Below, in pieces: positions 32,596 to 60,241 of a stretch of 64,000 nt of DNA; positions within the stretch are counted from its first letter, which is position 1, and each line of letters begins with the position of its first letter. The stretch lies in contig OZ005689.1 in the NCBI GenBank assembly GCA_963930775.1, forward strand, positions 13,268,923 through 13,332,922, written 5' to 3'. Source of the DNA: Cliona cf. orientalis. Its lineage: Eukaryota > Porifera > Demospongiae > Clionaida > Clionaidae. The position numbers and the translations under genes were made by a program. The notes below the pieces were generated by a model that made no database searches, had not been told where the DNA came from, and saw only the letters and a program-made list of their open reading frames with translations.

Positions 32596-35500
32596 CTACA
32601 ACTTTGCTGGAACTGCCCAATCACAGTCACTCTCAACTCCAAGGTTATTGGTTCCACGAACAATTCTAAAGACAAAATTTATTGCTATGAGTTATGAGGT
32701 GCACACCTATGATAATAATTTTGCCTTGTGACGTACCTGAACCATCCCATTTCTCCCCAGTAGGTCCCCCCTGTACAAAGACACATGCAAAAGACATAAT
32801 AAAAGAAAATTAAAATGAATGCACAGGAGTGCAGAACCCTCACTGCTACACGTATGCATGACTCATGCACAATATCATGTAGATCTATAGCATGTCTCAA
32901 TGTGTATGCCTGCTCAATATCAGGAGTATTGAACTAGCTACATGTACATGCCCTGCACCTGAATAGGGTTCTGGTACTCAGGTCTTCTTCAGAGTCAGTG
33001 CATGATATAGGCCTATATAGGGGGAAGGCACCTGGCTATATCACTATATTAATAAACTGAAAGCCTCTGCCGTGACTACTAACTGAATTATGCACTTGAG
33101 AGCCACTGCCTGTTTACACTGTCACTGCATTGCAATTGATGATTGACCAGCAAGGCATCATAGGTGCCAACTGTCCCGGAACGTCCGGGACAGTCCCGAA
33201 ATTGGAGGCCTTGTCCCGTGTCCCGCACGGAAGTTGCTTTTTGGCTTAAATGTCCCGGAATTTCTACCTGACTGAGCTGATTAACAATTACAGCTTACCA
33301 ATTGCACTTGTAAATGCCTGAGCAACCTTCAAAACTACTAGTAGCGATTTCGGACCTATCAAAATTGAGGGTGATAAGAAAAGTCCCTGTTTTACTTTGT
33401 TTATCGAACTGCGCTTTTTCTCACTTGCGTGGCCTAAAATGTGACTTGATCGAGCTTTCAAACGCATGTTGTCCGGGATCAATCCGTTGAGTAGTTTTGG
33501 AGATACACGGGGTTAAAATTTCTCAAACGTTTATGCCCATATATACTGCGTAGAAAAAATTACGTACGGATATTTTAGCGCTACACGTGGCACCGCACTT
33601 GTTTGGGTTCAGGCGACCTGTGAGTGTCGATTTCGACCACTCGAATTGGTTCTTAGGAAATCGGGGGTGCTGAGTTCGAATTTGCAGCTCTTTTTTCCTG
33701 AAAAGGCACTGAAACCTCGATACTGGCAGCCGTAGGTGAGTCTGAATCGTGGGAACGCATGTGTACTAAATAGATGAAATAAGTGGGCCATATTTTGAAC
33801 CTAAAATTCCAGTTTAGACCAATAATTATGTAGCGGAAACGTGCGTATCGGCTGTAATGGCCCTATAAACAATGAAATATTGCTGTAAGCCTGAGCTTAA
33901 CCCTTTAACTGGTGTAGGCGCCATATGGCGCCCGGAAAGGGTCGTTTGTTAAAAAAATCACAAAAAAAGACCAGAACGAGCTATGCTCTTTTTAAACGTA
34001 CCAGTAGATAGAGAAAAAGTTTCTCTACCTCGTGGTATTTTTTGCGAGGTCAAAAAGTGCACGTTGCTATATAGTACGAGCTATTGAAAATCGATCGAAA
34101 TTTTTCCGAGTTCTTTGTAACGATGGCTAGTCGCTTGAGCGTCTACGATGTGCTTGAGAGGCTAGATGACGATGATGATGGATTGTATTCAGGGGATGAG
34201 AGTGACTGTGAGGCAGAAGGGATCTCTGGGTACATGCCCGAGACCGATGACGGCCTCATGGCGGATATTGCCAGCGGAGAAGCGCTGGATGACGAGGAAG
34301 AAGAAGGCAGTATGGACGCTGATGATGCCTCTTCTTCAGCAATCACTACTGGTCCGGTTTCAGGTCAGTATTTGTAACTAATAGCTACTTCTAGATGTAT
34401 AGCTACCCTTAGCTCATAGTACATGAAGTGAATCAGAGTAACTGAAGTTTATAAAGTATCATAAACTGTCTCATTACTAGATGACAATGATGATGATGAT
34501 GATGGAGACTCTACGTCGTGTACTTCACCAGTACACTCAGATGCTGGCTCTGACAGTGGCAGGTCCAGAAGTGGTAGGAGCAGGGGTCATTCTGGTAGTG
34601 ACAGTGAGTCTGATTTGAGTGATACTGGTAGAGGTAGGAGTAGGATTCGAGGACGTGTGGAATAGGGCCAATGGTTTACTGCCAGAGGCGATACCACAAT
34701 AAAAAAAGCGAGTCCATGACTGCACCTCCTGGGTGGACATGGAAGCAGTCACATGGAAGCAGTCACCATAGTACATGTAGCAATGTGTGGAAAGGCACCA
34801 TATTGTGGTTATTGTTCAACTTTGATCCTTCTGTGCATCCCTGTGTTGTACCGTTCTGGTAAAAAGACTATTCCGCCATACTTCAAATGGCCATATCTCT
34901 GGCATCTTTTGAGTTACAACACTCAAAAAAATTTTTTCTTGTTCAGAAGGTGTGCTAGATTTAGAAAAAAAAATAAAAAAAATTTTTATACTAAGTTTTG
35001 TACCCATGATCCCTCACTTTCGAATAAATTAGCGTCGACGGCAGGGTTACGGGGTTGCCATGGCAACGAAAGTTTCACCATAATTTTCTCTGGCCTGTGT
35101 ACTTTCTAAAAATATATGGTTGCTAAGGACTTTATTAAAGTGTAGGCTCTCTATGATTTTTTGAAACTATTCTATTTTTTCCTCAAACATATTCACCAAT
35201 TAAAGGGAGATACATGAAGGCCCATTGTGTGGGACGGGTTATGACGTCATATCGATCACGTGATGTCTTACTGACGTGTATGTGTATAAATGTAGGGTGA
35301 AATGGCTAAATCATTACCTCTTCTTGGTGATAACTGTGCACAGGTGGGGATATCTGCTGAAGCTATTGTCTCTGGCCGTGAGCTACCAGTGCTTCCATGC
35401 TCCTTAATTACAAAAGGAATTGTCTATGAGCTGAACACTTTTAGAAGTAAGTGTGATTACTCGTGGGATAACTTTTACGAGTGGTTAATGAGGATATGCA

Positions 35501-38500
35501 AAAACGAAGTTCCATAAACTCTACCTTGTGTTAAGTTTGCATTATCTAGACTAAGTAAAAAGAGATCTGAACTCTCTCGAAACAAGCAACGTCAGCAGAT
35601 AGCAGACTTATTTAAGGAGCCTTTTTTCCCCCAAAGAAACCCGTCAGAGCTTGAAAAAGGTACCATAGAATCTGTTGACCCAGCACCTGTATCTAAACCA
35701 AGTCTTAGTGTTAGAAATGTCAATAAGAGATTGAAGCGTAGGGACGAAAAAATAAGACAGTACAAATCTGATGTTGCCGATCTCTCCAAAGAAAATCAGG
35801 TCCTTCAACATCGCTTAACATCCGCTCAGCAAACTGGTGAAAAAAAACGCTTAGCTGTATATAGAATGAATCAGAAAATGGAAATGACAGCTATGGAAAA
35901 CCTACATTTACATTGAACTTTTAAGCTTAAATGTTGGCATGAAGAACATAGAGCCGGTAATCACGTCTGTACTGCGACATATGGTACATATGGAGGTTGA
36001 TACCCTTCCAAAATCTACCACTTTGGTGGATATGATGGCAGAAATGAAGGGGCTAGCATGCCAACAAATAGCTGAGCAGCTGACTGCCTCAGAAAAATTA
36101 ACATTGCATAGTGACGGAACTTCAAAATTCGGTCAGCATTATGGAGGATTTCAGGTATCAATGCCTGATAGTGCATACTCTTTGGGATTATCAGAAATGT
36201 TAACAGGATCTGCTGAAGTAACCCTCAGTACTTTGAAAGTAATACTATCGGATATTGATCTAGTTGTTGGTGAGGGCACAGGAAATAAAATTTTGAGTTG
36301 CATAAAGAATACTATGTCAGATCGTCATATCGTAGAAAAGAAATTTAACTGTTTGCTGGAAGACTATCGGGCACAAATTTTGCCTATGGTTGTAGCAGAT
36401 TGGGACAAGCTCTCCATTGATGAGCAGTCTAATTTGTCTTCTCTGAACAACTTTTTCTGTGGAATGCATGTCATTGTTGGCCTGGCAGATGCTGCATCAG
36501 CTACATTACTGAATTGGGAAAAGACGCATTCTGATCCAAGTATCCCTCCATTTGGTCCTGTGATTGCACGAAAGACTGAACCGGGCATTATCAGGCTAAT
36601 CCGAACAGCGTGCAAGGCCCTTAGTAAGCATGGCTGTGAGCAGAGCGGTGTCTATCTACCCTTTACCACATTTTTGAAATCTAATGGTGTGTGCAGAAAC
36701 CCACTGGCGTCCTTTAGGGGAAATAGGTTTAACATCGTTTTCTATGATGCAGGTGCCCTCTTTTATATCGCCCCATTAGTTCAAAAATTTTTCAAGGAGG
36801 TGTGGCAAACCCCAAATCAGCTACTGAAAGCAGTTTCAGCTGATCTTTCCGTACATGAGTATGTGGCTGGATGCAAAGCACTTGGGATAGTCAATAAAGT
36901 GATCACAGGACCACTCTGGCGAGTGCTTGAATGCAAAGAGATAACTATTCTTGACATGAATCAGCGATTTAGGACCCTGTTATCATGCCTGAATGATTGG
37001 TCTGTTAATGCATCCTCTGTAATAGCTGGAGAAGCTGTAGTTTTTGATGATTTTCCTCCCACAGTAGATTCAATCCATGCTAGCCTGTTTGCACCAAGTG
37101 AGTATGATGCTGTTGTAGAAGAACTTTTGTGTGTTCTATTCAGTGCTTTCTCTTCCCTGCTTCTGCGACTTGTTGAGGATCATCTCCCTGGAGGAAAATT
37201 TGACAATGCAGATGAAACCCTTGTCACAGACACTACTTCAGTTCCAAAGCGTATACAGTGAGTGAAAGAGATTTTGCCCAGCTTGACCGTTTGCTAAGGG
37301 AAAAACCAAATGCATCTATTCTGTCACTCGAAGCAATGATCTTGTTTAGCAATAACAAAACTGCCAAGTGGTTGAATGAGAAATCTGAAGCTGAACGGTC
37401 GAAATTGCTTCAGAAAGCCAGAGCTTGTGGACCAGAATTGAAAAACCAGTATCAAGCTCGCAAAAAGCAACTCGTAGAAGAACGTGCTGGTATTTTGCAA
37501 GCAAAACAAGCTGCTCTAATGCGTTTACAAGAGAAGAGAGTACAAGAGAAAGAGAAACTGACACAAACAATGATGATTTATGGCCTATGGCAAAATGAGC
37601 AGCAAATGCAGGCAGGTTTGATGAAGCTAAAGACTAAAACTAGCAAATTTCAAGCCCTGAAAGCTCAGCTAGACTTCAGAAAAAAAGTTTTGGAGCAAAA
37701 TCCCGCAGACAAGAGTGTTTTTTGCCTTTCAAAAAACAAAAAAAAACTATCGATCGAGGAGGTATGCAGCAACCTTTGTGAACTATTTCCACCCACACCT
37801 GGGTATGATAAGGAAGGTCTCATTGGCAAAAGAATTAAGCATAAATGGAGTGTGGATGGGAGCGACAAGTGGTACTTGGGAACGATTCTTGATGTAGTTG
37901 CTGGTACCAGTGATTGGTACAACGTGAGATATGACGACGAACAAGAAGTGCTATCCTTAAATTTACTCCTCGATATTGAAAAAGGAGACCTCGAATTTAT
38001 TGATACTGATTTTATTGAGCTCTGAATTTGTCATTTTGTCTATGTACACTGTTTCTTATTCATTCTAAATATGGAGACCCTTTATGTAATAAAATTTGAT
38101 TTACTTCCGGTGAAACCGGATGTGGGTGTGGCCTATAATTTAATTACTAGTGACCTAGAACTTCAAACACACTCATTTCAAAGTTTGGTGGTTTAATTCC
38201 ATAAAATGAGAAAGTTACAACCAGTTTTATCTATTGATCATCTGCGGTGCCATATATCCCTATAGCAAAATCCGTACGATAAAATTGAAACCCTGTCAAG
38301 TAATTTCAATTTATAACTCTTGATTAGAACAACATATTGGAGTGATTCTTGCACCAAAATGGAGCGCAATTAATGTACTATTTTGGGATGGGCAACATTG
38401 TACTACTACTTGTAATTTTAATTTTAGTCTGAAATCGCTACTACTAGTAAATCGCTATAGAATCTCTTTACAGTGGATTGATTGTTGACTTGACCCAAAC

Positions 38501-41500
38501 AGCTGGCTTGGGGGTGGAGTCAACCATTAATAACTAGTGGCACTAAGGTCACATTCTTGGATTTAATTAGTCCTAGTGGGTGTGGTATGGGCGTGGAATG
38601 GGTGTGTTTGGGGCGTGGTCCTTGTGTCCCTGCTGTCCACCAAAAAAAGTTGGCATCTATGAGGCATAGAATGGCAATCAGTCATGTAGCTGAGGTAGGT
38701 GCCATGTAAACACAGACTGGCAACAGCTGCACACTACTACACCACTGGGCAGGACGTAACGTGACCACTCTTCCTTGATGCTAGTAAACTTCAGATGCGT
38801 ACTTTCTCTCAGACGACCCTTACCAAACGGACGGACGGACGGACAAAAATCACCAAACGATTGCAGTAACCCTCCCCCTACGCTTTGCGGCAGGGGTTTA
38901 CTAGTATTGTGAAATGTCTGCAAGTGAGAAATTAAACACCCAGCTGCAGTGCAGGATAGTTTCCCAGGTTACAGGCTCTCTTTTGTACAAGAATGGCTGA
39001 GGGCATCGGAACTATCAGGACGAGATACGGAATCTTTTCAAAGAAAAACAGAGGGTGTCTAGCTACATGTATTATAAAATAACTATGTACATGCATCCCT
39101 TGACAAATTATCTCCTCATTGGCAACCAAGCACTGTATAGCGGAGTAATTTTTGTTATTTTCGTGACTGCTCTAACAGTCACAAAGATTAGCCCCCCGCA
39201 AAACTTTGCCAAAATAGGTAAAGGTCGTCTGGTAACAGTAGCCGTGAGTGTGCATGTGATCATGGTCAAATGCATGGCATCTGCCTCCAACCTATTAAGC
39301 ATCTGCGACCATCCATTTTTTTATCCCTACAGTAGGCATAATATAATTATTATGGTGGCCAAGCACTACGTGTAAAACTCATGGGCCTTTCCAATGGATT
39401 CAAAGTCAGTTTTTCGCCAAATTCAATGGGTTGGGTGTTAACAATCCACTTTCACTCAAGTACCAAGATTTCCTGAATTGGTAATTTCTGTGTGGGCAAC
39501 GACAACAGTGATAGAACCGATTATTTCACTCCCTTGGTGGGCCAAATTCCAGAAAAGCGACAAAGTAAGGCAGAATATGACACAAATAAATAGCATGCTA
39601 GCTACTCAAGTTAACAGTAATCATGGTATTGTATGGTAATATGTTCTGTGACCCACAAAAGAGATAAAAATATCCCGCCTCTTAAAAAATTTCTCACTAT
39701 TATAAGTATTATCAAGGTGTCTTATTAGGGGTGGGATAAACTACATGTATACATAAAGCAGCTCACATGAGTTCCTTCCAATCCAATACTTGGTTCCATT
39801 CTCCACACCCCAGCCAGCAATGGATACCTCATGGTCCAGGGACTGGGAGAACATTCAATGATATATTATTGCATAGACGGTACATACATGTACATTGTAC
39901 ACAAAACCCACCATCCACTACAAGTTACCTAACATCAACACAGGGATTCCCCCAGAACAGAATCCAAACTGGGTGATTAATGATATTCATAGGCTTTTAA
40001 TTATGTTGTGGCTTTAAACTCCACCCATTTCTTTGATGTATATATATCCAATCAGCCCAAAGTCAAACTGGGTGGCCCATCCTGATTCAGGTATGCTGGG
40101 GGAAACACCGTCAACATACCGTGGCATTCGTATTATCGTTGAAGATTCCTCCCGAGTATTCAACGAATGCCTTAGTGACAGCAACGCCGCAGCCTATTGG
40201 ACCACGGGCGTAGATCTCTGCCATCATGTTCTGCTCCCCCTTCACCTCACCATGCTCACTTATGGAATACTGAAACAAAAAATATCCACAGTTAACATAC
40301 ATGTACATGTATATGTATTGTGTAGCTCCAATCATAGTGGCATATTTTAGTATCTTTCAATATTAACAGTATCAAGTTCCCAGGTGCTACTAAAAAAAAC
40401 CTTAATCACATTAACCACAGACATGATACATCGTAGGGTAAGGGCACCAGGCCAGTATATACATGTATACATGTGTAGAATCTGATGTGGGTGCAATGAA
40501 CCACAATCATCATAAGGAGTGTACACTATGTACATGTAAATAATAACATTCTCTCTCTCTTCAGGGGGCCTCAAAAGGTAGTACACCCACAGGTGGGGAA
40601 GAGATATAGATAAGACTTACTTCAGGATATTTAGTGACGGCAAAACATCCTTTGCCTGGAGCACAGTTCCTACATACATTCTCTGGTACACACTTCTGAT
40701 CAGCAGCGAGGTAGTTGGTGCATGTATCATCACCAATGCCTCCGTTCTGAAGGATCCAGGCATAGGCAGCAGTGGGGTCACCACCTTCACAGCCGTGTGA
40801 ATTGTTGGCCTTCATGTAGGACATGGGGCGAATCAATAGCATGTAATTATCAGAACTACATAAACACCTGTACTTAGTTACTTCACTCATACATATACAT
40901 GTATATGTGACCCAACCTACATGTATTCCTACTTGATCTAGATACATGTACACATGCAGGTGCATGTTCTAGCCAAAGCACAGACTCAGTGGTAAGCGCT
41001 GATCGGAATTATAGCATGAGGCTAAGTGTCGTGCTGTATTGGCTTCTAGATCGACACACTCCGAGTAACTAGGTTATACTTTTTATTCATCACTACAGAG
41101 TACTAAACCACATCATAATTAGTCTCACAGGAAGACATATATTATTGGTGGTAGAGGATTGTTCTACTTTAAATTTTCTGGTCCAAAAACTACAATGTCA
41201 TGCTATCCAGCTATACATATTACATAAATTTCTTCATTCAATGCACTTCTAAGGTAAATGTCAGGATAGCAGTGATTGCAGGCCCGTAACCAGACCGTGA
41301 GCTAGAGGGGTTCTATTTATTTTCACATGGAGGGCATGCTCCCCAGCTTTTTATGTCATTGTTCATATCTATATAATTATAGACAGTATGCTACACTGCT
41401 CATAGGTGTTGATTTGGTGGAATGTAGCAGTTTACATAAGTAACCACTTATCAACTAAGTGCTGTGAATATCATTAACGTTCATTCAATCAGTGTACAAG

Positions 41501-44500
41501 CTCGAGTGCAGCTCCTTGGTGGACCTCAACAGCCAGGCTAGGGGGTTCAATCGAACCCCCTGAAACCCCCCTCCCCCCCCCCCCCCCCCCCCCTCCGGCT
41601 ACGGGCCTGTGATTATGTTTTGACAGTGGTGGACTAACAAACAGGACTTACTGAAATCTAAAGATACATCAACTTTCAACAGTATAACTTTTTAAGGATT
41701 GCTCATTCTATCGCAACAAGTCCATGTCCATAATACACAGTGCCAGGATTCGCTCCTCCAAGGCTTTTTCTAATTATGTACACATGTAAATGTAATGGTC
41801 ATGTATATGTGTATATCCATGGCATTATAGTACTGAACTGTCCACAGAGCGTGACTTCTAACACATTATCACTAGGTTACCAGGAGAATTATTATTATTA
41901 TAGTGACAAGTGGGAGTGGTATGGAGTGTTAGGCTAACACAAATTAAAGTCATAATATCATCAATAAACTCACAGTGACACAGTCCATGAGTACTTGTGG
42001 GGAGAGATTGATGTCAGGAAAACTGGCCTTTCTCATCAACTTGATGCGATCGCTCAGAGCAGAGGTGGTCCCCATAGCCCAGCATGACCCACAGTCTGCA
42101 AACACATCATTGTGAAATTATAATTATATGACATTGTAATACTAAGTTACATGTACACCACAAGATAAAAGAACTTCCATGTGAGTTCTTCGCTGACACT
42201 GTAATCATTATTATGTAAAAACAATCGACCTTTCTAGCCATAGGAATTTGTACGTACGTTAAAAATTAATGAAAAATGGTGCAGTTTAGATATAGGTAAA
42301 TATTTCATGGAGGAGAGGGGGTTGGGGGTACCATAGGCCATACAATGAAGTATCAATAGTCCAAGTCCTACATTGTGGTATATGCTGGTTCCTGTTGACA
42401 GTGGTAAAGTCGACTCCATTGATGTTCCTGGGGTCATAGGAGTCGGGCAGGTCACTGGGGTTCAGGTAGGTGTGAGGCAGAGCTGAGACGATGTGTGTTG
42501 GGACAGGAACCTGGTCGGAGAAGAGTTTACATGATTTGTGAATATTATTAACCAGGGTGAAAAGGACTGCACAAAATTAATATGTAGTTAGTATCAAGGG
42601 TTTCCCCAGAAATTTTGAGTAGAGCAGTATTCTTTGTTCATTTTGGTCAAAGATCAAAAGTTTTAGCATTCCTGTATACATTTTACTGACAACATCAAAG
42701 GGAACTGAATGCAAGTTGGCCTACGGAAACCCCTGAGCATGAGTGTTGGCGCGGATATCCAGTGCCACGGTTATACATGAATATTGATCGTTCAAGTACC
42801 AGTTATGCCCAAATATATATACTGGTGCAAGCAGTTCAAAATTAATGACGACAGCGTTTTGATATTGAAGTGGGACATATTCAGGGTCGTTGAAGCTTAG
42901 TAGCCGAAGGTTTGAACACGCACGGAATTGAAATACTTCGATCTTTATTAATTTTATTTTCAATGGCACTGAAAATAATGGTTTGGGGTGGTACCATGCG
43001 GTAATTTGGTGTAAAACCACGTGTTTTCAAGTCGACAATAAACTGCACATACACGTTCCTTTTTGCCCAGAAATTGATTACAGTTCAGATAGTTCACTAG
43101 CAAAATAGTTTACTAAATCTTCATTCTATAGTAGCAATTCTAGATAACTGACCAGGGGCGTAGCCAAGATTTTCTGAGGGGGTTTCCTAAGAGTTGCGCG
43201 CGAAGCATGTGCAAAAAATTTAATGACCACGCCCACGTTTTTGGCCACGCCCTCTAATTAACGATCGCCATTTTCAGCAAGAGCTGGCTAGATTCTCGAG
43301 ATTTTGGCAGGGAAAAGCACAAAGGGAGGAGATCTAGGCTAAATTTCAGGAGATTTTAGTGCCTACACATTGAATTTGGAAACCAAGGGGGGTTTCCTGA
43401 TTGCTAAATCATATTAACATAATACTGAATCTGACTGCCAGGGGGGGTTTCCGGGCAACAAAGAAACAACTAAGCTACGCCCCTGCTGACCTAGGCACAT
43501 ATTATATAAAAACAGTTATGGATACAAAAGCAAAAACCACAAGATAGTCGTATTCAGTCACGAGGCTAGACCATGTTACAATAACATTATTTTTCTCAAC
43601 AAAGAATAATCATAATGCCACAACAAAATTTAATGCCTCAAACCAAGCATATTGGTTGAGTATTGCTCGTAAGCTATCAATAGCTTAACCGTATAAAAAT
43701 TGCTATTGCGCCAGTTTGCGCTATCGATCTGAAAAATAGGGCATCACATTCAATCGCTATCTACATACATAGTCATATCTGCTTCATCACACACACACAC
43801 ACATACATGTATAATGTACGTACCAACGCACATACATATACACGTGCCTACATATGTAGTAGACACACATGCATACTCACTTCACTTTCTCTTCTGCAGC
43901 GAAGTCCATCAAGATTAAGAGATGGTTTGGCTGAGACTTGCTCCGTTTGTTTCTTCAACAGTGGCACCCCCCAGTCACAGTCGTTCTCAAGACCAAGATT
44001 GTCCTGGGAGGAGAGGGAGAGACTGATGCCATCATGGCAGGAATAATAATTATTCGTGGTATGGCTTCCAGTGTTCTCCCCAAGCTAAATTCAAGGTATG
44101 ACAGATTGGCATATATACTTTGGGTGGAGCCTGTAGCCACAACAAAGCTTATGGAATATCCCTCTTTCCACATCAAAGGAAACTCTATACTGAAGACTTG
44201 TTGGGCCGACATGCCTTAGGGACAACACTGGCTTCATATGTGATAATGTATGGCTATAGCTTTCAGAGTTGCAAAACTAGTGAAATCTCTCATGTAGCTG
44301 CAAGTGTAGCTATAGCCAAGAATCTTGCAAACAAATGTACAAGTACATAAAATTAAGGCGTTTTTAGGATTTTCTACCCACCCTTTTGTCAAACTTTCAT
44401 TGGAAGGAGGTGATTTGTATATACCGCATCGATCAAAGACTTGTCCAGATCTCCTCACACAGACGCAATATTAATAATTATTAGTAGAAAGATAACTCTC

Positions 44501-47500
44501 CTGAGCCATCGTATACTGCATTTGTTATGATAAGCTCACTTATATAATATTATGGGTTTCCTATTCTTGTATGCATTCATCATGTGCAATGATATTATTA
44601 TTCATTTTTGGTCAAGTGTTAACCATTGCATGTAATTATTTCCACTCACCTTGTGCATCATGACACGAGCATAGCCATTCTCTCCCCAGTAGGTACCCCA
44701 GGAGTTGCGCACGTGCCAGAACTCAACACCTTTCTCCACACCCCACCCCACCACCTGCAACACAATACCAAAACAAAAAATAGTTCTAGGAAATATTAAT
44801 TTAGTAAACTTTGATCGTAGCAGATAGAGGGTTTTCTACACATGCATATAATTTAAGATTTGTGGGTCTTTTTCAACTGATAAACTGAACTATCCACTGA
44901 GAGCACAAACCATAACAAACCTGTAGGTGCATGCAGGGGGTATCTTTAGGTGGGATTAACTACTAAGATAGGTGATAGAATAAATACATGTACAAGGTGG
45001 GGGATGCTAAAGGGCCCCTCAGCATCAGGATCATAACTTGAAGGCTCAGTCATCCAGCATCATCAAAACACTTATTACTGTGGTTTGTTACATTATTCAT
45101 TGAAAGGTTTCTGTTAGGGCTACCAGTGGAAGCAAGAGCTTCAATCCAAACAGAGCAAGTACATGCAATTAGTGGGCATGGTGGCAAAATATTAATGTGA
45201 GAAAAGAGAGAGCCTGGGAATGAGGACATTGTATCATAATTTTCAATACAATGGATTAAAAAATTTGCCAAGTCCAGCTACATTTTGTTGCAGAAATATT
45301 CTGTGCAATAAAATTTTCGCTAGTTAATCATACATTACATGTACCAGGTCTAATGCAGGACAAAAAGTTCATGTGATAAAAAAATCACCAATGAGACTGC
45401 ATGGACAGTGAAATTGGCAGAAAATTTCTGCATGTACGGTATAACAACTCACAGAAACTTCGTGGTTTATCATGATAAGAAACTTTTCTTGAGAGAAAAT
45501 GCCACCAGTGTAGTGCTCAAACTGGGAGGTGACATCAATCCCACAGCCAATGGGTCCTCTGGCGTAGATCTCAGCCTTCATCTTATCAGCACCCCTCACT
45601 CCTCCGTAGTCACCCACCCAGTAGGTAGGGTGCTGCTCAACTGGAGAGCACTGCAGTATTATAGCAAAGTACATGTACATGTCGGTACACACATCTAAGC
45701 ACAATGTACACGTACATGTACAATGTATGCTTGTAGGCTCACTATAATATTATAGTTGCTGCATAGTGTGCATTTCCTTAGGATAGGAAGAATCACATTA
45801 TTCACTCTAATAATAATATTTACCCTACAGGTACATGTAACTGTAACCCAAAAAATATAGGTACTTACAGATTTAGAAGGAGAACAGTTCTCACACACAC
45901 CAAGAGGCTTGCATTCACCGTCCTTGGCCTGAATACCAAATAGAACAAACATTAATAACTAAAAATCCAAAGGAAGATACATATTTATGAAATTAACCTC
46001 ATATTCCAGGAACCCACATTATACACATGTACATGTACATGCACATGTGAATTGAGTAATAATGCGTTATTACTGATCTGTTCAATCAAGACATTATTAT
46101 CGTTCTGCAGTCATCAAACAGAAACACTACATCAACCTTTTCACTGACCACTACCGCAGTTGAAGTCATGCTCCATCATGCAGAAGCAACACACTACATA
46201 ACAGAAATGGTATATTATACATACTGTGGCAAGACTGTACTACATATATGTACATGTATACTATGTCAGGAAATACATATATACTATATACCAGTACTAC
46301 ATAGTAATCAGAAATAAAAACAAAACTCCAGTCCCACAAAGCACTATTCGTGATATGCCCGGGTCATGATGCCTCTCCTCTTACATGGTATATTGTCGCT
46401 GGTCATCATCGTTATACTGATCCTCGGACATCAGCTAGTGCTTCAAGCCATGATGTCATCAAATTCTACAAATCATTTACACCCATAAATACTCGCCTAA
46501 GATAGTAGCCATGCCTTGTGACAGTACATGTACTTGTACATGTATGTAACTGTTACACTGTAGTACACACTTCATACATGTATATAGTTTGTGGTCACAG
46601 CACATCTGCTGCTGCATATAATAGTTATCTGTCAGTGAGCGAGCAATATGAGCCCTGCAAGGGCTCATATTGCTCACTCACTGACAGATAACTATTTTGT
46701 TGTATCTAGCACTGTTGGTAATGTAGGATTATGTAATCCTGCACACCTAATTGGATTGTGGCTAGAGTGTATGGCGTGTACTCTGGGTGACTGCTCAACA
46801 ACCAGTTTTATAAAACTCTTGAACACTACTCTACTGTACTTGGTTGCTTAGTAACTTACAACAAACATGTTCAAGAGTTTTATAAAACTGGTTGTTGAGC
46901 AGTCACCCAGAGTATATACATGCCATACACTCTAGCCACAATCCAATTAGGTGTGCAGGATTACATAATCCTACATTACCAACAGTGCTAGATACAACAA
47001 AATAGTTATCTGTCAGTGAGTGAGCAATATGAGCCCCATAACTATTATATACAACTCACTTCATAATTTTGGCAGGTTTCATCGGGAATACCATTCTGGT
47101 GGATGTACTCATACACCCCTCCCGGGTTGCCTCCCTCACAGCTACCTCCTCCATGGCAGTTGATGATGACTTGGGGGGAAAGGTGGATCTGAGGAAATGC
47201 CTTCTTCCTCATAATGGAGAGTCTGTCACTGAGAGCAGACGTTGGACCCATCGCCCAGCAAGATCCACAGTCTGTGGATAGATGGTGGAACCACAGCATA
47301 ATATTATATAGATAGAATAGGTCACACAGACCCCCTAGCCTGTCTGTACATGTAAGAGACCCAAAGGCATGAGGCTCTTAGCGTATTGATATAATTATTG
47401 TCCACCTCCTCTCCATATGCATGAATTCCACGTGCTGCATGTACATGTGCATGTATGTATTCACAACTGTACACGCATACATGTACGTGGACACGGACAT

Positions 47501-49051
47501 GGATGGACCATTCTAGTTCTTAATTGAAAGATACCCAGGTTCTACGAGTTAGTGTAGATAATGGCTGGGTGCTACTTCCAGCTACGGGCCTAGCACGAAG
47601 CTAGCACGAGAACAACCCCACTACAGCAGGGCCATTAACCGTAGGATCATTACCGTGATAAACCCTGGATCACTTCACACGACCCACGGCCATATTCCCA
47701 CAAACAGTGATCGTGTCCATCCTACTACACAAGGCCAGGCACCCATTGGATTGGTTGAAGGATTATGGATGAAGTATATAACTTGCTCAAAGTCACAACA
47801 ACAAGGCCCAGGTGGGACTCGAACCCCCAATCCTGGGATTGGGAGCACAAGGCCTTAACAACAGCACCAATCTGCCCTACCACACACACTCATACAAAGA
47901 GCACAAAATTAGAGAGATTACTAATCCAGATTAAAGGGGTATCTCCTGCATGCACAGTGCATCTATAGACTGATGTTTTACGTTCTAAAGTACATACGTA
48001 CATGTATGAATCAAAATGTCGCGTGCAGGGGGAGAGAGAGGGAGAGAGGGAGAGAGAGGGAGATTATAGGCCACTTTAATTTAATACTCTGTTTCTCGGG
48101 CCCGACTGACTCTACTTTTGAAGAAACTTTTGAGGTCACAGGTCGGGTTTAATTTAATACGTATATGTAATAGATTTATTGAGAAAAGATTCAATTACCG
48201 TGTAGCGGGAAACAGTTACTTTCAAGGGAGAAAACTTTCACGAATTTCGCAATTTTTCAGCCATGCACGAAAGTTTTCTCCACAAAATTCTAGGCATGCC
48301 ACACCCATTATGCGACCAGTTTTAACATTCCGCGAAAGTTTTCTCCGCAAAATGCTCCTTTCCTACCGATCCGCAAAAGTTTTCTCCCTCAAAAATTTCC
48401 CGCTATACGGTATTTACCTAGGACACGCCCATTTATTTTCATTTATAAGCTGACCTATCGACCCTATCCTGAGGAAACGCCACCCCGAGAAATAGAATAT
48501 TCAAATTGAAGAGGCCTTAACATACACTGTGGAATGTGTTGGTTGGTTGAAGCAGTGAGGTAGTTGACTCCATCCTTGTCTCCCCACGTGAAGTTGGCGG
48601 GCAGATCCTTCACACTGACGTACGTGTGAGGCAGGGGGTCTGTGATCCTCTCCCCCTGGGAAAACGTAGCTGCAGATGAACAAGCATGATAAAATTAACA
48701 ACAATAGAGGGGTGATAAACTAGCTAGGTGGTGATCTTGCAGGCCAGCCCCTCCTACTCACAGAGGGACTGGCCCGCCAGACTAATGGCGCCGCTGGCAG
48801 TCGTAGTGTTGTGTGTAAAGTAAGTCTGCCAGAAAACACATACATGTACAGTTCAGACACTAATACTATCTACTATATCATAATATTACATGTAAATCAT
48901 GTACGATTTGGATTACAAGCCCATGTCATGTACTAGGAATAAATAAATTCTTACTTTTTTCTACCCTGCAAGGAGTATGAGCGCCCTCTGCAACATACTG
49001 CGCGAGGACAAGCGCTATCGCAACGGTCACTCCAGCCCTGTGAAACACCAT
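32596..49051 (-). CDS. Tandem-domain cathepsin X/Z (bicatalytic papain-family protease)
   Basis: Fifteen minus-strand exons in phase encode 590 residues: 49051-48965, 48825-48762, 48669-48526, 47271-47060, 45928-45869, 45650-45453, 44754-44650, 44003-43881, 42510-42372, 42095-41974, 40809-40621, 40269-40120, 39842-39767, 32770-32737 and 32665-32596. A signal peptide ([16 protein letters not shown]) and a short propeptide come first. Each half has the cathepsin X hallmark [15 protein letters not shown] (catalytic Cys with the HIP mini-loop), [24 protein letters not shown], the catalytic His (INHEVSV; LDHEVSI) and Asn in [10 protein letters not shown]. Human cathepsin Z has one such domain in about 300 residues and is a lysosomal carboxypeptidase. 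Joining exon 8 to exon 9 (both phase 0, no new signal peptide seen between) is my inference; two adjacent genes are the alternative. Introns hold many transposons, including a 5.5-kb one before the last two exons. Confidence 0.8.
32820..33157. repeat. Dispersed repeat R, left part (split copy)
   Basis: Reverse complement of about 6970-7290. It shares ttatgcacttgagagccact, gcacaggagtgcagaaccct and gaccagcaaggc. It is interrupted after ggca by the 5.5-kb element and resumes at 38663. Confidence 0.8.
34123..34678 (+). pseudogene. Acidic N-terminal ORF, possibly piggyBac-type remnant
   Basis: Two exons (34123-34366 and 34481-34678, with a GT..AG intron) encode a very Asp/Glu-rich then Ser/Arg-rich chain ([19 protein letters not shown] and later [17 protein letters not shown]) ending at a TAG. 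Acidic N-termini followed by an RG-rich stretch occur in piggyBac transposases, and TTAACCCTTTAA at 33897 resembles a piggyBac end. No DDD domain follows, so it is at most a fragment nested in, or belonging to, the 5.5-kb element. Confidence 0.4.
35302..38025 (+). pseudogene. Large transposon protein, putative DDE-type transposase, three lesions
   Basis: One protein of about 900 residues appears to run from [20 protein letters not shown] to DTDFIEL. It is interrupted by an in-frame TAA at 35515-35517, a frameshift near 35905 and another near 37258, where the 440-codon block (35939-37261) meets the next frame. The first part has a coiled coil (about 35700-35910). The middle has [47 protein letters not shown] and [13 protein letters not shown]; the conserved-looking acidic and His positions suggest a nuclease/transposase core, but I cannot name the family. 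The C-terminal part has a second coiled coil and a Tudor/Agenet-like segment ([26 protein letters not shown]). Its position between the TIRs supports a transposase role. Confidence 0.6.
38088..38093 (+). terminator. Poly(A) signal aataaa of the transposon gene
   Basis: An aataaa hexamer lies 63 bases after the last stop codon of the transposon protein, on its strand. Confidence 0.5.
38663..38840. repeat. Dispersed repeat R, right part (split copy)
   Basis: Continues the interrupted repeat with ggcatagaatggcaa, then cagctgcacactacta and cactgggcaggac, matching the complement of about 6885-6975. A 45-bp extra segment related to 6465-6510 is inserted, and a (ggac)n run follows at about 38835. 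Confidence 0.75.
41279..41612. mobile_element. MITE with caggcccgtaacc ends
   Basis: The ends caggcccgtaaccag and ctacgggcctg are inverted relative to each other. A poly(C) run (about 41570-41593) lies near the right end, and tgatt occurs on both flanks. It sits in an intron of the cathepsin gene. Confidence 0.65.
43153..43489. mobile_element. MITE with caggggcgtagc ends
   Basis: The ends caggggcgtagcc and gctacgcccctg are inverted, about 337 bp apart, with ctgac on both flanks. The interior has repeated gggggtttcc. It lies in the intron that separates the two cathepsin domains. Confidence 0.72.
46620..47037. mobile_element. Giant foldback element in cathepsin intron
   Basis: Two arms of about 165 bp (46661-46826 and 46869-47037) are near-perfect inverted copies (gggctcatattgctcactca ... 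ttataaaactcttgaac). In addition 46620-46695 is its own palindrome built from the same terminal sequence. The right arm ends about 23 bases from the exon border at 47060. Confidence 0.87.
47540..47884 (-). repeat. SINE-like element with tRNA-like segment
   Basis: On the minus strand, 47884-47806 has a B-box ggttcgagtcc preceded by a tRNA-like region (gtagggcagattggtgctgt) and a strong hairpin ccaatcccaggattgg. The unit extends leftwards to about 47540 with gctagcacgaagctagcac-like sequence. A tRNA gene with a long variable arm was considered but the acceptor stem is not convincing. Confidence 0.45.
48196..48412. mobile_element. MITE, taccgtatagcggg family, copy 3
   Basis: 217 bp, inverted ends taccgtgtagcgggaaa and complement of the right end; interior gaaagttttctcc motifs as in copies at 26706 and 30008. 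It lies in intron 3 of the cathepsin gene. Confidence 0.83.
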
Positions 49052-53729: not shown

Positions 53730-55621
53730 GATTGATACCTGGTTCGTCTACTTTTGTTTCGTCTACTACTGGGTCCGTCTACTCTTTTTTCGTCTACTCC
53801 TGTTATGTCTACTATTGTATAAATACTTCAATTTGGTACTTAAAAAGTGTTTTAGTATGTTCAAATGACAGTTCAAAGATTAAAATAGTAGCTGTGTGGT
53901 ACTGCTGTCCATAGATTATGGTACAAAGAATGAAAGTTCAAAGGTTAATAGTAGGTATTTGAATGACCTTTTGATGAATTAAAATGTCCCACAATTGATG
54001 GGTGTTGAGTAGACTAGCTCTGTATATAAGTGAGCAATCACAAGCATGCATTTCACATTCTCAATTTAACTGAGTCAACCATGGAGCAACAAGTGGAGTT
54101 TATCACTACCAAACGAGGAGCAAGATCCCTTGTCATCAATGGGTACCAGTATACCCTCAACCGACGAGGCAGAGAAGGGCAGTCCTACTGGAGGTGTACC
54201 AACAGACTGTGCAGAGGAAGAGCTGTTACCAGTGAAGATGAAGTGATATCAGTCAACAACCTCCACGACCACGAACCAGATTGTGTTGAGGTGGCTGTGA
54301 AGAAAGTAGTTCAGGAAATGAAGACAAGAGCCAGATCAGAAGCAACGTCGATTCCCAAGATCTATGCCCAGACTATAAGGACCGCTTGCGAAGACGAAGA
54401 AGTGACAGCCACCCTGCCTACCTTTAACTCGATAAGAACATCACTCTACCAAAGCCGTCAACAGAGATACCCTCCAATACCAGAGTCAGTTGATGACCTC
54501 GACTTCAGTGGAGAGTGGGCAGTGACTGACAAGAACGAGATCTTCTACCATGGGTGCAGAGACGGAGTTTTCTTGTTCACAACAGAGAACAATCTTGACA
54601 CCCTATCAAGAGCAGAAATGTTCTGTTGCGATGGCACATTCTCCATATGTCCACGCCTGTTTTACCAGGTCTTCACTATCCATTGCTTCAAGCATCCCTT
54701 GAAAGCACAACTAGGGAAGCTAATCTGGACTGACTGGACTAGAGCAAGCTCATAGTCAGCTTTGACACATGCGGGCATTAGTGTGAAGCCATAGTTTTGG
54801 CTAACTTCCTTCAGTAGAAGGAAAGCATTGTTGTAAGTCTCCCTTGTTTTGTTTGGTAACAAAAAGTACACCATAGGGAACAACTTACCATGCTACTATC
54901 ACTTTGCTCAAGCTATTTGGCGTAAAGTTCAGAATCTAGGCCTTGCTTCAGCCTATAGACATCCACAAAGTGAGGATAACAAGTTTTTTAGAAAAGTTAT
55001 TTCACTGCCTTTTGTGCCTGTTAGTTACGTAAGAATGGCCTGGGATGGTTTAAAGCATTGCATGCCTAGTGGCCAAGCATATGATCACTTTGTTGATTAT
55101 TTTGAGGGGACATTAGCCTAAGTCATTGGAATGTCCACCTTATTGATGGACCGCGTACAAATAACAACCTTGAAGGTTGGCACAGCAGAGTTAAAACTCT
55201 GGCTGGTAAAACCCACCTGAACATTTTCGAAATCGTTGAACTGTTCAAGACTGAACAGTCTAACATGGAAGCCAGCATCCTGCAGCTCGCTTCAGGAGGA
55301 ACATTGAGAAGCAAAGGAGTCAGCAGGAAGAGAAAAGAAGAAAGAATAAGAAAGATACAGGAGAAGTTTGACGAAGGAGACTATACTCTGATGGAGTACC
55401 TTGGTGCCTTGTACAGATGGGTTGGATTTTAAACTGTCAAACACTTGGACACTATACTCTGATTCATTTCATTCTCGAACACTGATTATGTTATTATTGT
55501 TTTGCACTGTATTGATTATTTTTATAGACATAACAGGAGTAGACGAAATGAGAGTAGACGAAAAAAGAGTAGACGAACCAAGTAGTAGACGAAACAAAAG
55601 TAGACGAACCAGGTACACAGG
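53730..55621 (+). mobile_element. Mutator-like (MULE) transposon with repeated TIRs
   Basis: Long inverted ends of about 75 bp (53736-53815 and 55535-55615) are built from repeated ttcgtctact or its complement agtagacgaa. The target duplication is probably atatatta (53722-53729 and 55622-55629), 8 bp, extendable to 9 bp with one mismatch, which fits MULEs. The interior holds a FLYWCH-MULE transposase with an inverted segment. Confidence 0.78.
54081..55434 (+). pseudogene. FLYWCH + MULE transposase with internal inversion
   Basis: From 54081 (or the in-frame 54030) the protein has a FLYWCH zinc finger (TKRGARSLVINGYQYTL, YWRCTNRLCRGRA, HDHEPD). The MULE domain start follows (CCDGTFSICPRLFYQVFTIH), with the first catalytic Asp. 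At about 54690 the sense flips: the next block, FPMVYFLLPNKTRETYNNAF through PACVKADYE to FPSCAFKGC, is encoded on the minus strand between about 54889 and 54690. After 54890 the plus strand resumes with YYHFAQAIWRKVQNLGL, and, after a frameshift at 55121, RTNNNLEGWHSRVKTL and a basic C-terminus to the TAA at 55432. So a 200-bp inversion in place has killed the gene; all conserved blocks remain. Confidence 0.82.
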
Positions 55622-55972: not shown

Positions 55973-58900
55973 ATGAGTGATACATATATAACATTCTGTA
56001 TTCCACTCATGATCATGATCCTCTGGTTTAGATTGGTGGATAACTGTCAGATGGCTAGTCAGCTACTCCTGATTCTGGCTTGCACCTGCAGCTTGGCCAG
56101 TGGGGAGGTGTATTTCATCAAGCCCTCACAGAACTCTTCATGTCCTCCTGAGCAAACTTGCATCACTCTCTCTCATCTGGCTGACAATTTCAATAGGATA
56201 CTTGAAAACAGCAACTTAGCCCTCCTCTTTCTATCAGGAAACCACATGATTAACGACAAGCTTTTGTTTTGGGATTTAGACATCTTCTCAATGTCAAACT
56301 TTAATTTAGAAACTGTAAATATAACGTGTCTTAGTCAGTCAGGTAGCTTTGACATCAGCCAGACCACTACTGTTTTAGTCAAGAATTTACACATCATCGG
56401 ATGTGGCGGTATTCATATTAAACATGTGAGTCGGTTTATACTTGAGAACACCACCTTCCAAGGAAGCAATGGCACAGCATTAGTATTTAATCAAACAAAT
56501 GAAGCTTACATAGTCAACTGTTTCTTTATTAATTGCAGGAGCAGCTTTTACTCCTCACTGAATCAATCATTTGGTGGAGTTGTCGTAGCATTAAGCAGTA
56601 GCATTTGGGTGGAAGACACAACGTTCGAGAAAAATACTGCTGAAATTGGTGCTGCTATTTATGGGCAGGAGGGTAACATTACAACATACAAGAGTAACTT
56701 CCTATACAATGAAGCTTCTAGTCAAGGTGGGGCACTAGCTGCTTTCAGATGTTTGGTCCATGTTGTTATTTGCACATTTATTGGAAATGGAGCTGTAGAT
56801 GAAGGTGGTGTCATTTTCACTGCTGAAAGTTCATTCTACATTGTAGACAGTTTTTTTAGTACCAATTCAGCTGACTATAATGGTGGCGTCATTTATTCTG
56901 AAAGAGACTTATTTCATATTGTTGACAGCACATTTAGTGATAATACAGCTCCCCTTAGCGGAGTTATTTATATACAAGACGGTTCCTTCTACATTGCTGA
57001 CAGCTCATTTAGTAATACTTACAATGGTGGAGTCATTGTCTCAGACACAAGTTTATTCGAGGTCGATGTCTTTAATAGCTCATTTAATAACAACTCAGCT
57101 AACAATGGTGGAGTCATTTACTCATTAAAAAGTTCATTCTATATTACTGATAGCACCTTCAACAATAATTCAGCTACTTTGGGTGGTGCCATTCATTCAG
57201 ACAGAAGCTCATTCTTTATTATCCACTGCATATTTACAACTAACAAAGCTTCTACTCAAGGTGGAGTCATTGCTGCTACATCAGGAAGCTCTTTCCATGT
57301 TGCTAATAGTTCTTTTAGTAGCAACTCTGTTGATATTTGTGTGAACATAACTAACAATAATAGCTCTGCATTCGGCGCCATTACAGTAACTGTTACAGTA
57401 GCTATAGACTATAACTGTACATGTTATAGTAATATACTTTCATTTGATCACTCTTCTCTTAACCTTTCTGGAAACACATCTTTTGTGAATAATGCTGGAT
57501 CACAAGTTTATGCTGCAATAAGCAATATAACATTCAGCGGTTTCACCAGATTTGAAAACTGTGGGAACATGAGTCTTGGTGGAGGTGCTATCAATAGTAT
57601 TCTCTCAAACGTGTATATTTCAGGCAGAACTCATATGATCGGGAACCTCGCAATATCTGGTGGTGCCATCTTTGGTAGGGACAGTGTGTTTTCCGTATCA
57701 GATGATACAATAATTGCCAACAACGAGGCAAATATAGGTGGTGGTGTTTTCCTCCAACAAAGTAGTTTGGAGATTAATGGAATGAATATTTCCTGTGACA
57801 TCTTCGATAACAATGCTATGGTGTGGGGTGGGGGAATCTATGGGTTTGCTTCAACTATCACTGTCAATCAGCCAAGTGCTCTTCGTCTGATGAACAATAG
57901 TGCAGAGCGGGGAGGTGGGGTTTACTTTGAAGATAACACAAAAATACTGATAAAAAAGCACTATAAAGAACAATTATTTTTTCCAGAAGTGATAACAAAC
58001 TTTACAGGTAATCGTGCAACATTTGGAGGAGCAATATACGTAGAGGACAACACCTACTATGGTGCGTGCGTAACATCCACAGAATGTTTCATTCAAGTTC
58101 GTGCATTGTACACCAGGACCACTAATCGTAATTGCATCCTTGACTCTGATCTTCGGCAACAGAACATTAATATTTACTTCTCGGATAACAAAGCTACAAG
58201 GAGTGGAGACAACATCTTTGGTGGATTACTACATGGATGTATCACAGATTTACTTTCTGAAAGTGGTTGTTACGGTACTACAGTTGGCATTGACAATATA
58301 GTAGACGGTATAAGCAATGCTTCGCCTGAATCCATCTCTTCTCTACCAGTTAGAGTTTGTTTTTGCAACAATTGGGGCCAACCACACTGTAATCACCAGC
58401 CACCAGCTATCTATGTCAAGAAGGGAGAGACCTTTAAATTGTCACTTATTGCTCTTGATCAGGCTAACAATCCAGTAGAGGCCAACATCACCACTCTCCT
58501 TTCTCCATCTGATGGCAGGTTCAGTGAAGGCCAGCAGACCCAGACAGTACAACAACACTGTACACAGCTACCATTCAACCTCTTTTCCCCTAGCAACTTT
58601 GGAATACTGACTCCAATAGCTGTGGATAGTCCATGCAGAAATTTAAAGCTTCTCACAACGTCAAATATACATATTAACTTCTTAAACTGTACCTGCCCAA
58701 TTGGTTTTGAGCCATCGGGTGATAATGTGAACTGTGAATGCATTTGTGATTCAGCACTTTATCCCTATATCACTCGCTGTAATTCTACCACCTCTTCACT
58801 TCTGAGAGAGGGCACCAACTCCTGGATCATGTACGTGAATGACACCGATCCCTATCGTTACGTCATTTACCCTTACTGCCCTTATGGCTACTGCCACCCT

Positions 58901-60241
58901 GCTGATGATAATGTCAGCATCAACCTCACCATTCCCAATGGGGCAGATGCACAGTGTGTAAATAGACGTACAGGAGTGCTCTGTGGAGGCTGTCAACCAA
59001 ACTTCAGCCTCTCCCTGGGAAGTTCACAATGCTTACCTTGTACTATTTACTGGCCTGCTCAGTTGCTTGGTATTCTCCTAGCTGGCATCGTAGCTGGAGT
59101 CCTGCTGGTTGCTACACTTTTAGCTCTCAACTTAACGGTTGCCACTGGACTGCTCAATGGATTCATCTTCTACGCTAACATTGTAGGAGCTAGTAGTAGT
59201 GCATTCTTCCCATCTTCAGAACCAAGCTTTCCTATGCTGTTTGTGGCCTGGCTGAATCTGGATATAGGATTTGATGTCTGCTTTATTCGTGAACTAGATG
59301 CATACACTAAAACTTGGCTTCAATTGGCATTTCCTACTTATATCATAACTCTAGTTGTCCTAGTGATCTTCATCAGTGAGCGCTCCCCTAGATTTACTAG
59401 ACTAATTGGAAGGAGAGATCCAGTTGCAACTCTGGCTACACTTGTTCTGCTATCCTATTCTAGGCTGCTCTCAACGACAATTGTAGTGTTGTCCTTTGCC
59501 ATCCTTGACTACCCTGATGGCCCTCATGTGGTATGGCTTCTAGATGGAAATGTTAAATACCTTAAGGGAAAGCATACTGGTCTTTTCACTGTAGCCATTT
59601 TGATAATCTTGCTTGGTATTCCCTATACACTTTTCCTCTTTCTTTGGCAGTGGTGCATTCGAACTCCACACTGGAAGATTTTTGGATGGATTAGGAACAC
59701 CAGACTCAATACCTTCATCACCACCTACCATGCCCCATACAGCATAAAGCATCGCTATTGGACTGGACTGCTGCTGCTTGTGAGGGTGATCTTGTACATC
59801 ACTGCTTCAGTGACTACATCCAGTGATCTCCAAGTCCCACTTTTAGTGATAAATGTTTTGGTAGGGGGGCTTTTCTTTCTCAAGGGAATCATTGGAAGTG
59901 TATACAAGGATTTGCCAGTGGACATTGTTGAGACATTGATATACCTCAATCTTCTTATCTTTGCTGCGTCAAGTCTGTACCACTTCAACTCTGACAGTAC
60001 AAAGCAGGCAGCCATTGCATACACATCAACCACCATGGTCCTTATCCTTCTAATTGGAGTGGTTCTCGTTCATGGGATACTCTTTATGAAAAAGAAGTAT
60101 TGTGAAACTCGTGCAGTAGAGGAAGACATAGCTCCCACTAAACCTGATGGATCTGATACTAATGGACATGCTAAGGTCACCTACTCCTATGTGGAGTTTC
60201 AAAGTCTCCCATCAGAATCCGAAGTTAACAAGACTGCATGA
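55973..60241 (+). CDS. Pmp-type beta-helix multi-pass membrane protein
   Basis: An intact single-exon frame of 1422 codons. The used start is uncertain: MSDTYITF at 55973, an in-frame MIMILWF, or MASQLLLILACTCSLASG at 56051, which looks like the signal peptide. Next come CPPEQTCITLSHLADNF and a parallel-beta-helix region (residues about 120-800) with Chlamydial-Pmp-like repeats of about 22-25 residues (GGVIYS, FxxNSAxxGG; e.g. SSFYITDSTFNNNSATLGG), and many N-glycosylation sites. A Cys-rich stretch (CTCPIGFEPSG, CECICDSALYP, GVLCGGCQPNFS) precedes a C-terminal half with about nine hydrophobic helices from residue ~1022 to ~1390, then an acidic cytoplasmic tail. It should be a cell-surface receptor or adhesion protein with a large extracellular solenoid. 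Such architectures are expanded in sponges (family knowledge); the molecular function is unknown. A tandem paralogue follows at 63571. Confidence 0.85.
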   Translation: MSDTYITFCIPLMIMILWFRLVDNCQMASQLLLILACTCSLASGEVYFIKPSQNSSCPPEQTCITLSHLADNFNRILENSNLALLFLSGNHMINDKLLFWDLDIFSMSNFNLETVNITCLSQSGSFDISQTTTVLVKNLHIIGCGGIHIKHVSRFILENTTFQGSNGTALVFNQTNEAYIVNCFFINCRSSFYSSLNQSFGGVVVALSSSIWVEDTTFEKNTAEIGAAIYGQEGNITTYKSNFLYNEASSQGGALAAFRCLVHVVICTFIGNGAVDEGGVIFTAESSFYIVDSFFSTNSADYNGGVIYSERDLFHIVDSTFSDNTAPLSGVIYIQDGSFYIADSSFSNTYNGGVIVSDTSLFEVDVFNSSFNNNSANNGGVIYSLKSSFYITDSTFNNNSATLGGAIHSDRSSFFIIHCIFTTNKASTQGGVIAATSGSSFHVANSSFSSNSVDICVNITNNNSSAFGAITVTVTVAIDYNCTCYSNILSFDHSSLNLSGNTSFVNNAGSQVYAAISNITFSGFTRFENCGNMSLGGGAINSILSNVYISGRTHMIGNLAISGGAIFGRDSVFSVSDDTIIANNEANIGGGVFLQQSSLEINGMNISCDIFDNNAMVWGGGIYGFASTITVNQPSALRLMNNSAERGGGVYFEDNTKILIKKHYKEQLFFPEVITNFTGNRATFGGAIYVEDNTYYGACVTSTECFIQVRALYTRTTNRNCILDSDLRQQNINIYFSDNKATRSGDNIFGGLLHGCITDLLSESGCYGTTVGIDNIVDGISNASPESISSLPVRVCFCNNWGQPHCNHQPPAIYVKKGETFKLSLIALDQANNPVEANITTLLSPSDGRFSEGQQTQTVQQHCTQLPFNLFSPSNFGILTPIAVDSPCRNLKLLTTSNIHINFLNCTCPIGFEPSGDNVNCECICDSALYPYITRCNSTTSSLLREGTNSWIMYVNDTDPYRYVIYPYCPYGYCHPADDNVSINLTIPNGADAQCVNRRTGVLCGGCQPNFSLSLGSSQCLPCTIYWPAQLLGILLAGIVAGVLLVATLLALNLTVATGLLNGFIFYANIVGASSSAFFPSSEPSFPMLFVAWLNLDIGFDVCFIRELDAYTKTWLQLAFPTYIITLVVLVIFISERSPRFTRLIGRRDPVATLATLVLLSYSRLLSTTIVVLSFAILDYPDGPHVVWLLDGNVKYLKGKHTGLFTVAILIILLGIPYTLFLFLWQWCIRTPHWKIFGWIRNTRLNTFITTYHAPYSIKHRYWTGLLLLVRVILYITASVTTSSDLQVPLLVINVLVGGLFFLKGIIGSVYKDLPVDIVETLIYLNLLIFAASSLYHFNSDSTKQAAIAYTSTTMVLILLIGVVLVHGILFMKKKYCETRAVEEDIAPTKPDGSDTNGHAKVTYSYVEFQSLPSESEVNKTA

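Follow-up and report, generated by a model that had tools for sequence, protein, structure and literature searches.

Cathepsin X has been described as a carboxypeptidase with a single module, and a locus of the sponge Cliona cf. orientalis raises the question whether two such modules are encoded in one chain or belong to two adjacent genes. The locus lies in a stretch of 64,000 nt of contig OZ005689.1, here called the window, to which all positions given without a contig label refer. As judged from the sequence, it is quite probable that one gene encodes a preproprotein consisting of a signal peptide, propeptide 1, module 1, a spacer, propeptide 2 and module 2, and that this gene arose by a fusion within an exon.

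Two cathepsin X modules in a single open frame

A sequence-only reading of this DNA had placed a cathepsin X gene on the minus strand at 49051-32596, and its position and orientation were found to be correct. In this interval 14 exons give an open chain of 572 residues followed by a stop codon, with GT-AG borders at 13 of 13 introns, and Pfam Peptidase_C1 matches two stretches of the chain (whole-protein E 2.1e-99). That two complete cathepsin X modules lie in one open frame is well supported by the genome sequence; the 572-residue chain exceeds the one catalytic module per chain of an ordinary cathepsin X.

All exons are located on the minus strand. Exon 1 (48955..49051) carries the start codon, a hydrophobic, signal-peptide-like stretch (score 2.94) and the start of propeptide 1 with Cys28, and exon 2 (48526..48669) encodes the remainder of propeptide 1 and the start of mature module 1 up to HIPQ. 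The active site YCGSCW of module 1 (Cys85) lies in exon 3 (47060..47271), followed by exon 4 (45869..45928), exon 5 (45453..45650) with His234 and exon 6 (44650..44754) with Asn254. Exon 7 (43881..44003), the fusion exon, holds the C-terminus of module 1, the spacer and the start of propeptide 2 with Cys308, and is separated by the intron between the modules (42511..43880, hereafter the fusion intron) from exon 8 (42372..42510), which encodes the remainder of propeptide 2 and the start of mature module 2, again up to HIPQ. Module 2 continues with exon 9 (41974..42095; YCGSCW, Cys364), exon 10 (40621..40809), exon 11 (40120..40269) and exon 12 (39767..39842), in which both His517 and Asn537 are found. 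Exon 13 (32737..32770), 3' of a 7 kb intron, encodes 11 residues, and exon 14 (32596..32665) the C-terminus of module 2 and the stop codon. Within the 7 kb intron two ORFs lie on the opposite strand (35939-38025, plus strand), one of 440 aa without a Pfam match and one of 255 aa with a Spin/Ssty match; they may represent a nested gene or a mobile element that was inserted.

The chain of 590 residues and 14 introns proposed earlier gave way to this model. When the longer version was rebuilt by hand, it was obtained by moving the donor of exon 1 upstream by 10 nt and adding an exon at 48826-48763. This 64-nt stretch on the minus strand is probably not an exon and was rejected with fair, not full, confidence, since it would place 36 residues (hand count) between the propeptide Cys and the PH(T/L/E)Y motif, as compared with 18 in the 572-residue model, 17 in module 2, 17 in a single-module gene of the same genome (the C6 gene, see below) and 20 in human cathepsin X (1DEU), and since it carries an in-frame 9-nt deletion, with AG and GT kept, in a second copy of the locus (copy A, see below).

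Cathepsin X identity of both modules

The papain-fold set of Gln, Cys, His and Asn is complete in each module. The key residues are Q76, H77, Y81, C85, H234 and N254 in module 1 and Q355, H356, Y360, C364, H517 and N537 in module 2; the doubling of catalytic motifs that had been claimed was thereby confirmed, as both NQHIPQYCGSCW, both His and both Asn motifs were found. The HIPQY mini-loop in front of the catalytic Cys is the same in module 1, module 2 and human cathepsin X. Each module is furthermore preceded by a short propeptide with a Cys (Cys28 and Cys308) that aligns with the propeptide Cys of the C6 gene, which phmmer in turn aligned with a Cys of human 1DEU. By alignment, Cys28 and Cys308 are candidate partners of the catalytic Cys.

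The best solved relatives of the whole chain are 1DEU (1.9e-83) and 1EF7 (1.6e-77), for both of which the best stretch falls in module 1. The next match reached 1.3e-29, and cathepsin B, dipeptidyl peptidase I and cathepsin K were far behind. Identity is 52-53% between modules 1 and 2 and 51% between module 1 and human cathepsin X.

The C6 gene (C6:11085701-11086525, L012:1495-2394, minus strand) is intronless, cathepsin X-like and encodes 299 residues in a single frame. It differs from the window gene in having one module, one open frame, its own signal-peptide-like start (hydrophobic score 3.25) and an altered mini-loop, NQFLPSPCGCCW, in which the His of HIPQY is replaced; because of this replacement the exopeptidase specificity of the predicted product may differ. 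It is 46-47% identical to module 2 and 40% to module 1, and by eye its propeptide and C-terminus resemble those of module 2 most. Elsewhere in the genome papain-family sequences are frequent: PF00112 gave 116 matches, 11 of which are near-complete, readable in one frame and located on contig C16 in two arrays (G000:C16:190354-197654 with 6 near-complete matches and 4848102-4863163 with 5). Judging from their motifs, these C16 genes may be cathepsin L-like. In a look for silicateins among the papain-family loci, CGSCW was seen at L001, L002, L003, L006 and L030, and none was seen at L019.

A probable join of the modules within exon 7

Exon 7 encodes, in this order, the C-terminal 14 residues of module 1, a spacer of 21 residues and the propeptide start CRRESE, after which the donor GTGAGT follows. 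The spacer can be counted as 17-21 residues, as the last 17 of the 21 extend past LLKK. Propeptide 2 resumes in exon 8 with 22 residues after CRRESE, and the resulting 28 residues align with the C6 propeptide CYRE-LKEPLPSQILTKPPHLYLNPADIP. In a shuffle test of the 27-residue exon 7 tail against the C6 propeptide, 1 of 1000 shuffled sequences scored as high, whereas the same test was not significant against 1DEU (322/1000) or propeptide 1 (401/1000). The propeptide reading of the exon 7 tail therefore rests on the C6 gene. The linker had been called both propeptide-like and unusually short; the former holds, but the latter does not, as the prodomain of human procathepsin X is reported to have only 38 residues (PMC13257197).

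Measured from the first base of the propeptide Cys codon, the first intron of module 1 begins after 16 nt and the intron behind CRRESE after 18 nt. With this near-equal placement relative to the Cys, exon 7 looks as if a last exon had been merged with a first one. The consensus GTRAGT has a density of 0.4375 per kb on the strand of the gene, and an in-phase consensus donor in the approximately 100 nt from a normal module end to the next in-frame stop would be expected about 0.015 times (hand arithmetic).

A second, incomplete copy of the locus

On the same contig, 243 kb away, exons 1-11 are present a second time (copy A, C1:13074644-13064313). Over these exons (1539 nt) the window gene and copy A differ by 27 substitutions, 21 synonymous and 6 nonsynonymous, with 0 indels and 0 stops; exon 1 has 0 mismatches. 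The dN/dS is 0.078 for exons 1-11, 0.098 for module 1 and 0.059 for the module 2 part (exons 8-11), and the linker with propeptide 2 shows 1 synonymous change and, in 97 sites, 0 nonsynonymous changes. This comparison indicates that both modules evolved as coding sequence, and constraint before or outside copy A may account for the low dN/dS.

In copy A GT/AG is retained at 11 donors and 10 acceptors, including the donor of exon 7 and the acceptor of exon 8, and the fusion intron between the latter two is 547 nt shorter (823 nt, as compared with 1370 nt in the window). Exon 7 together with 40 nt of flank on each side is identical in both copies, which leaves the comparison uninformative about selection on the spacer. 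Exons 12, 13 and 14 were not found in the 28 kb searched downstream of copy A, so that copy A as assembled cannot encode a complete module 2, which leaves the window gene as the only intact one known with two modules. A third place (C1:13442222-13444924) has broken pieces of module 1 only.

Window 60361-40043 and G000:C1:13083177-13064245 form a duplicate of about 20 kb, 243 kb apart on one contig, which is 78-99% identical by block, is interrupted by insertions and may be a retained haplotype. A stretch missing from copy A (about 53730-55621) contains an ORF of 241 aa with a FLYWCH zinc finger (54030-54755, plus strand), which may be an inserted mobile element. At 55973-60241 (plus strand) an ORF of 1422 residues matches Chlam_PMP and beta-helix and is hydrophobic in its C-terminal part; diverged copies of it lie near C1:13438756-13451597.

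Alternative explanations

We consider it unlikely that two cathepsin X genes lie side by side at this locus, or that a single gene ends at either of two places. In that case the first gene would read through the exon 7 donor to an in-frame TAG 10 residues beyond it and use the AATAAA motifs at 42958 and 42949 (two ATTAAA motifs are also present in the fusion intron), and the second gene would have its own start exon upstream of 42566 or 42510. Such an arrangement would fit the AG acceptor at 42566, which is preceded by TACTAAC, and the frame of exon 8, which is open back to a stop at 42579; that neither AATAAA nor ATTAAA occurs within 1.1 kb 3' of exon 14 likewise counts against a single gene. 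However, AATAAA is common on the strand of the gene (0.98 per kb, which about matches the two in the fusion intron), and both motifs are missing in copy A. The acceptor at 42566, the sole other AG between the stop at 42579 and exon 8, is lost there as well, where GCGG is read in place of GCAG. No ATG is present in the frame of exon 8 between that stop and the exon. A scan confined to the intron 43880-42511, in which each ATG was extended to every GT no less than 36 nt further on, gave no convincing and no signal-peptide-like start exon for module 2: a hydrophobic score of 2.0 was attained by three candidates, which share the ATG 43833 in a TG repeat, and the best of them scored 2.46, below exon 1 (2.94) and the C6 gene (3.25). 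A further candidate, ATG 42740, falls in a part of the intron that is missing from copy A. Exon 7 itself, finally, carries the in-frame propeptide-like segment, which speaks for one continuous chain, and a module-1-only isoform that ends at the TAG 10 residues past the donor is possible.

If the fused frame is real, module 2 might still be a decaying passenger behind a working module 1. Copy A, which without exons 12-14 is devoid of the module 2 His and Asn, and the third place with its broken module 1 pieces could be understood in this way, but the active-site and mini-loop residues of module 2 are intact in the window and the dN/dS of the module 2 part is as low as that of module 1, which makes decay very improbable. 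Least credible of all is an error of the assembly by which two unrelated genes were fused. The region is indeed repeated on one contig and interrupted by insertions, but the join of exons 7 and 8 and its splice sites are the same at both loci despite the different length of the intron between them, which renders a local assembly accident unlikely. One gene with two modules thus remains the preferred reading.

Proposed origin of the two-module gene

A tree was calculated with module 1, module 2, the C6 gene, human cathepsin X (1DEU) and 6 other rows. The four cathepsin X rows fall together, with support, apart from the 6 others (98/97), and the order within this group is not settled by the tree. 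The best tree pairs module 1 with the human protein (70/72, not supported), and none of the alternatives was rejected, neither the modules as sisters (p-AU 0.418) nor module 2 with C6 (0.186) nor the modules and C6 without human (0.189). By eye, the modules share the intron before YCGSC and nearly also the one in the propeptide; other positions differ. Differing intron positions and an identity of only about one half indicate that the modules are old paralogs which were joined later.

One cathepsin X gene would have contributed its last coding exon, and a second gene, long diverged from it, the propeptide part of its own first exon, the two being joined in frame and within an exon. Such a fusion would have cost the first gene its stop codon and the second its signal peptide. 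Relatives in a set of genome contigs (3 loci, in bacterial and archaeal MAGs) and in a set of viral contigs (2), whose best segments are 26-32% identical, were uninformative for the fusion.

Proposed product and processing

The likeliest product, as predicted from the gene model, is one secretory precursor that gives rise to two carboxypeptidase units, either released or as a tethered pair. Its single signal peptide would direct the whole precursor, with both modules, to the secretory/lysosomal route. A bond between the propeptide Cys C10P and C31 is reported for human procathepsin X (PMC7863939), and in a similar manner each propeptide of the sponge protein could keep its own module inactive via its Cys (Cys28 and Cys308, respectively). 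The human proenzyme is regarded as incapable of self-activation, and its in vitro processing by cathepsin L or S is reported (PMC4842899); in the sponge, a cathepsin L-type endopeptidase might cut the propeptides. Two carboxypeptidase units at a ratio of 1:1 would result, and the tail left on module 1 could be trimmed. If the spacer survived, a tethered pair would be formed instead of free units. A mature covalent pair is nevertheless doubtful, because the propeptide-like segment in the linker is expected to be cleaved on activation.

An in-frame tandem of natural origin, in which each module has its propeptide, would allow one to test whether pairing matters for the enzyme. As propeptide 2 is internal and does not stand at the start of the chain, it also lets one ask how a carboxypeptidase zymogen copes with such a position, and the locus would present a case in which genes were fused within an exon and a signal peptide was lost.

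Comparison with known papain-family proteins

Among the matches listed from the open-licence literature, judged by title and the start of the abstract, no two-module cathepsin X was recognised. Two Peptidase_C1 matches in one predicted protein, as found here, are reported for a papain-like protease of grapevine, a plant papain-like enzyme that is mentioned there without particulars of its active sites and not as a cathepsin X (PMC8556938). The cathepsin Z of Ceratonova shasta, unlike the two-module chain, is reported with one peptidase C1 domain in an ORF of 286 residues (PMC8777295).

Human cathepsin X/Z (CTSZ; 1DEU, 1EF7) shares with both modules the oxyanion Gln, the HIPQY loop, the catalytic Cys, His and Asn and a short Cys-bearing propeptide. 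It differs from the sponge protein in having a single module per chain (277 residues in the 1DEU chain) and in the RGD of its propeptide, which is missing in the two-module protein. Eight residues close to the human C-terminus (8 alignment columns) are also missing from both modules and from the C6 gene; a 14-residue insertion in the C-terminal region is described from the human enzyme and is not known to be a defining feature of the family. For the mature human enzyme, an active homodimer is reported (PMC13257197). Measured against it, the sponge protein could be a built-in heterodimer, in which two diverged subunits of one chain are paired in cis and activated together and propeptide 2 serves also as a hinge, a tentative proposal to which we give limited credence.
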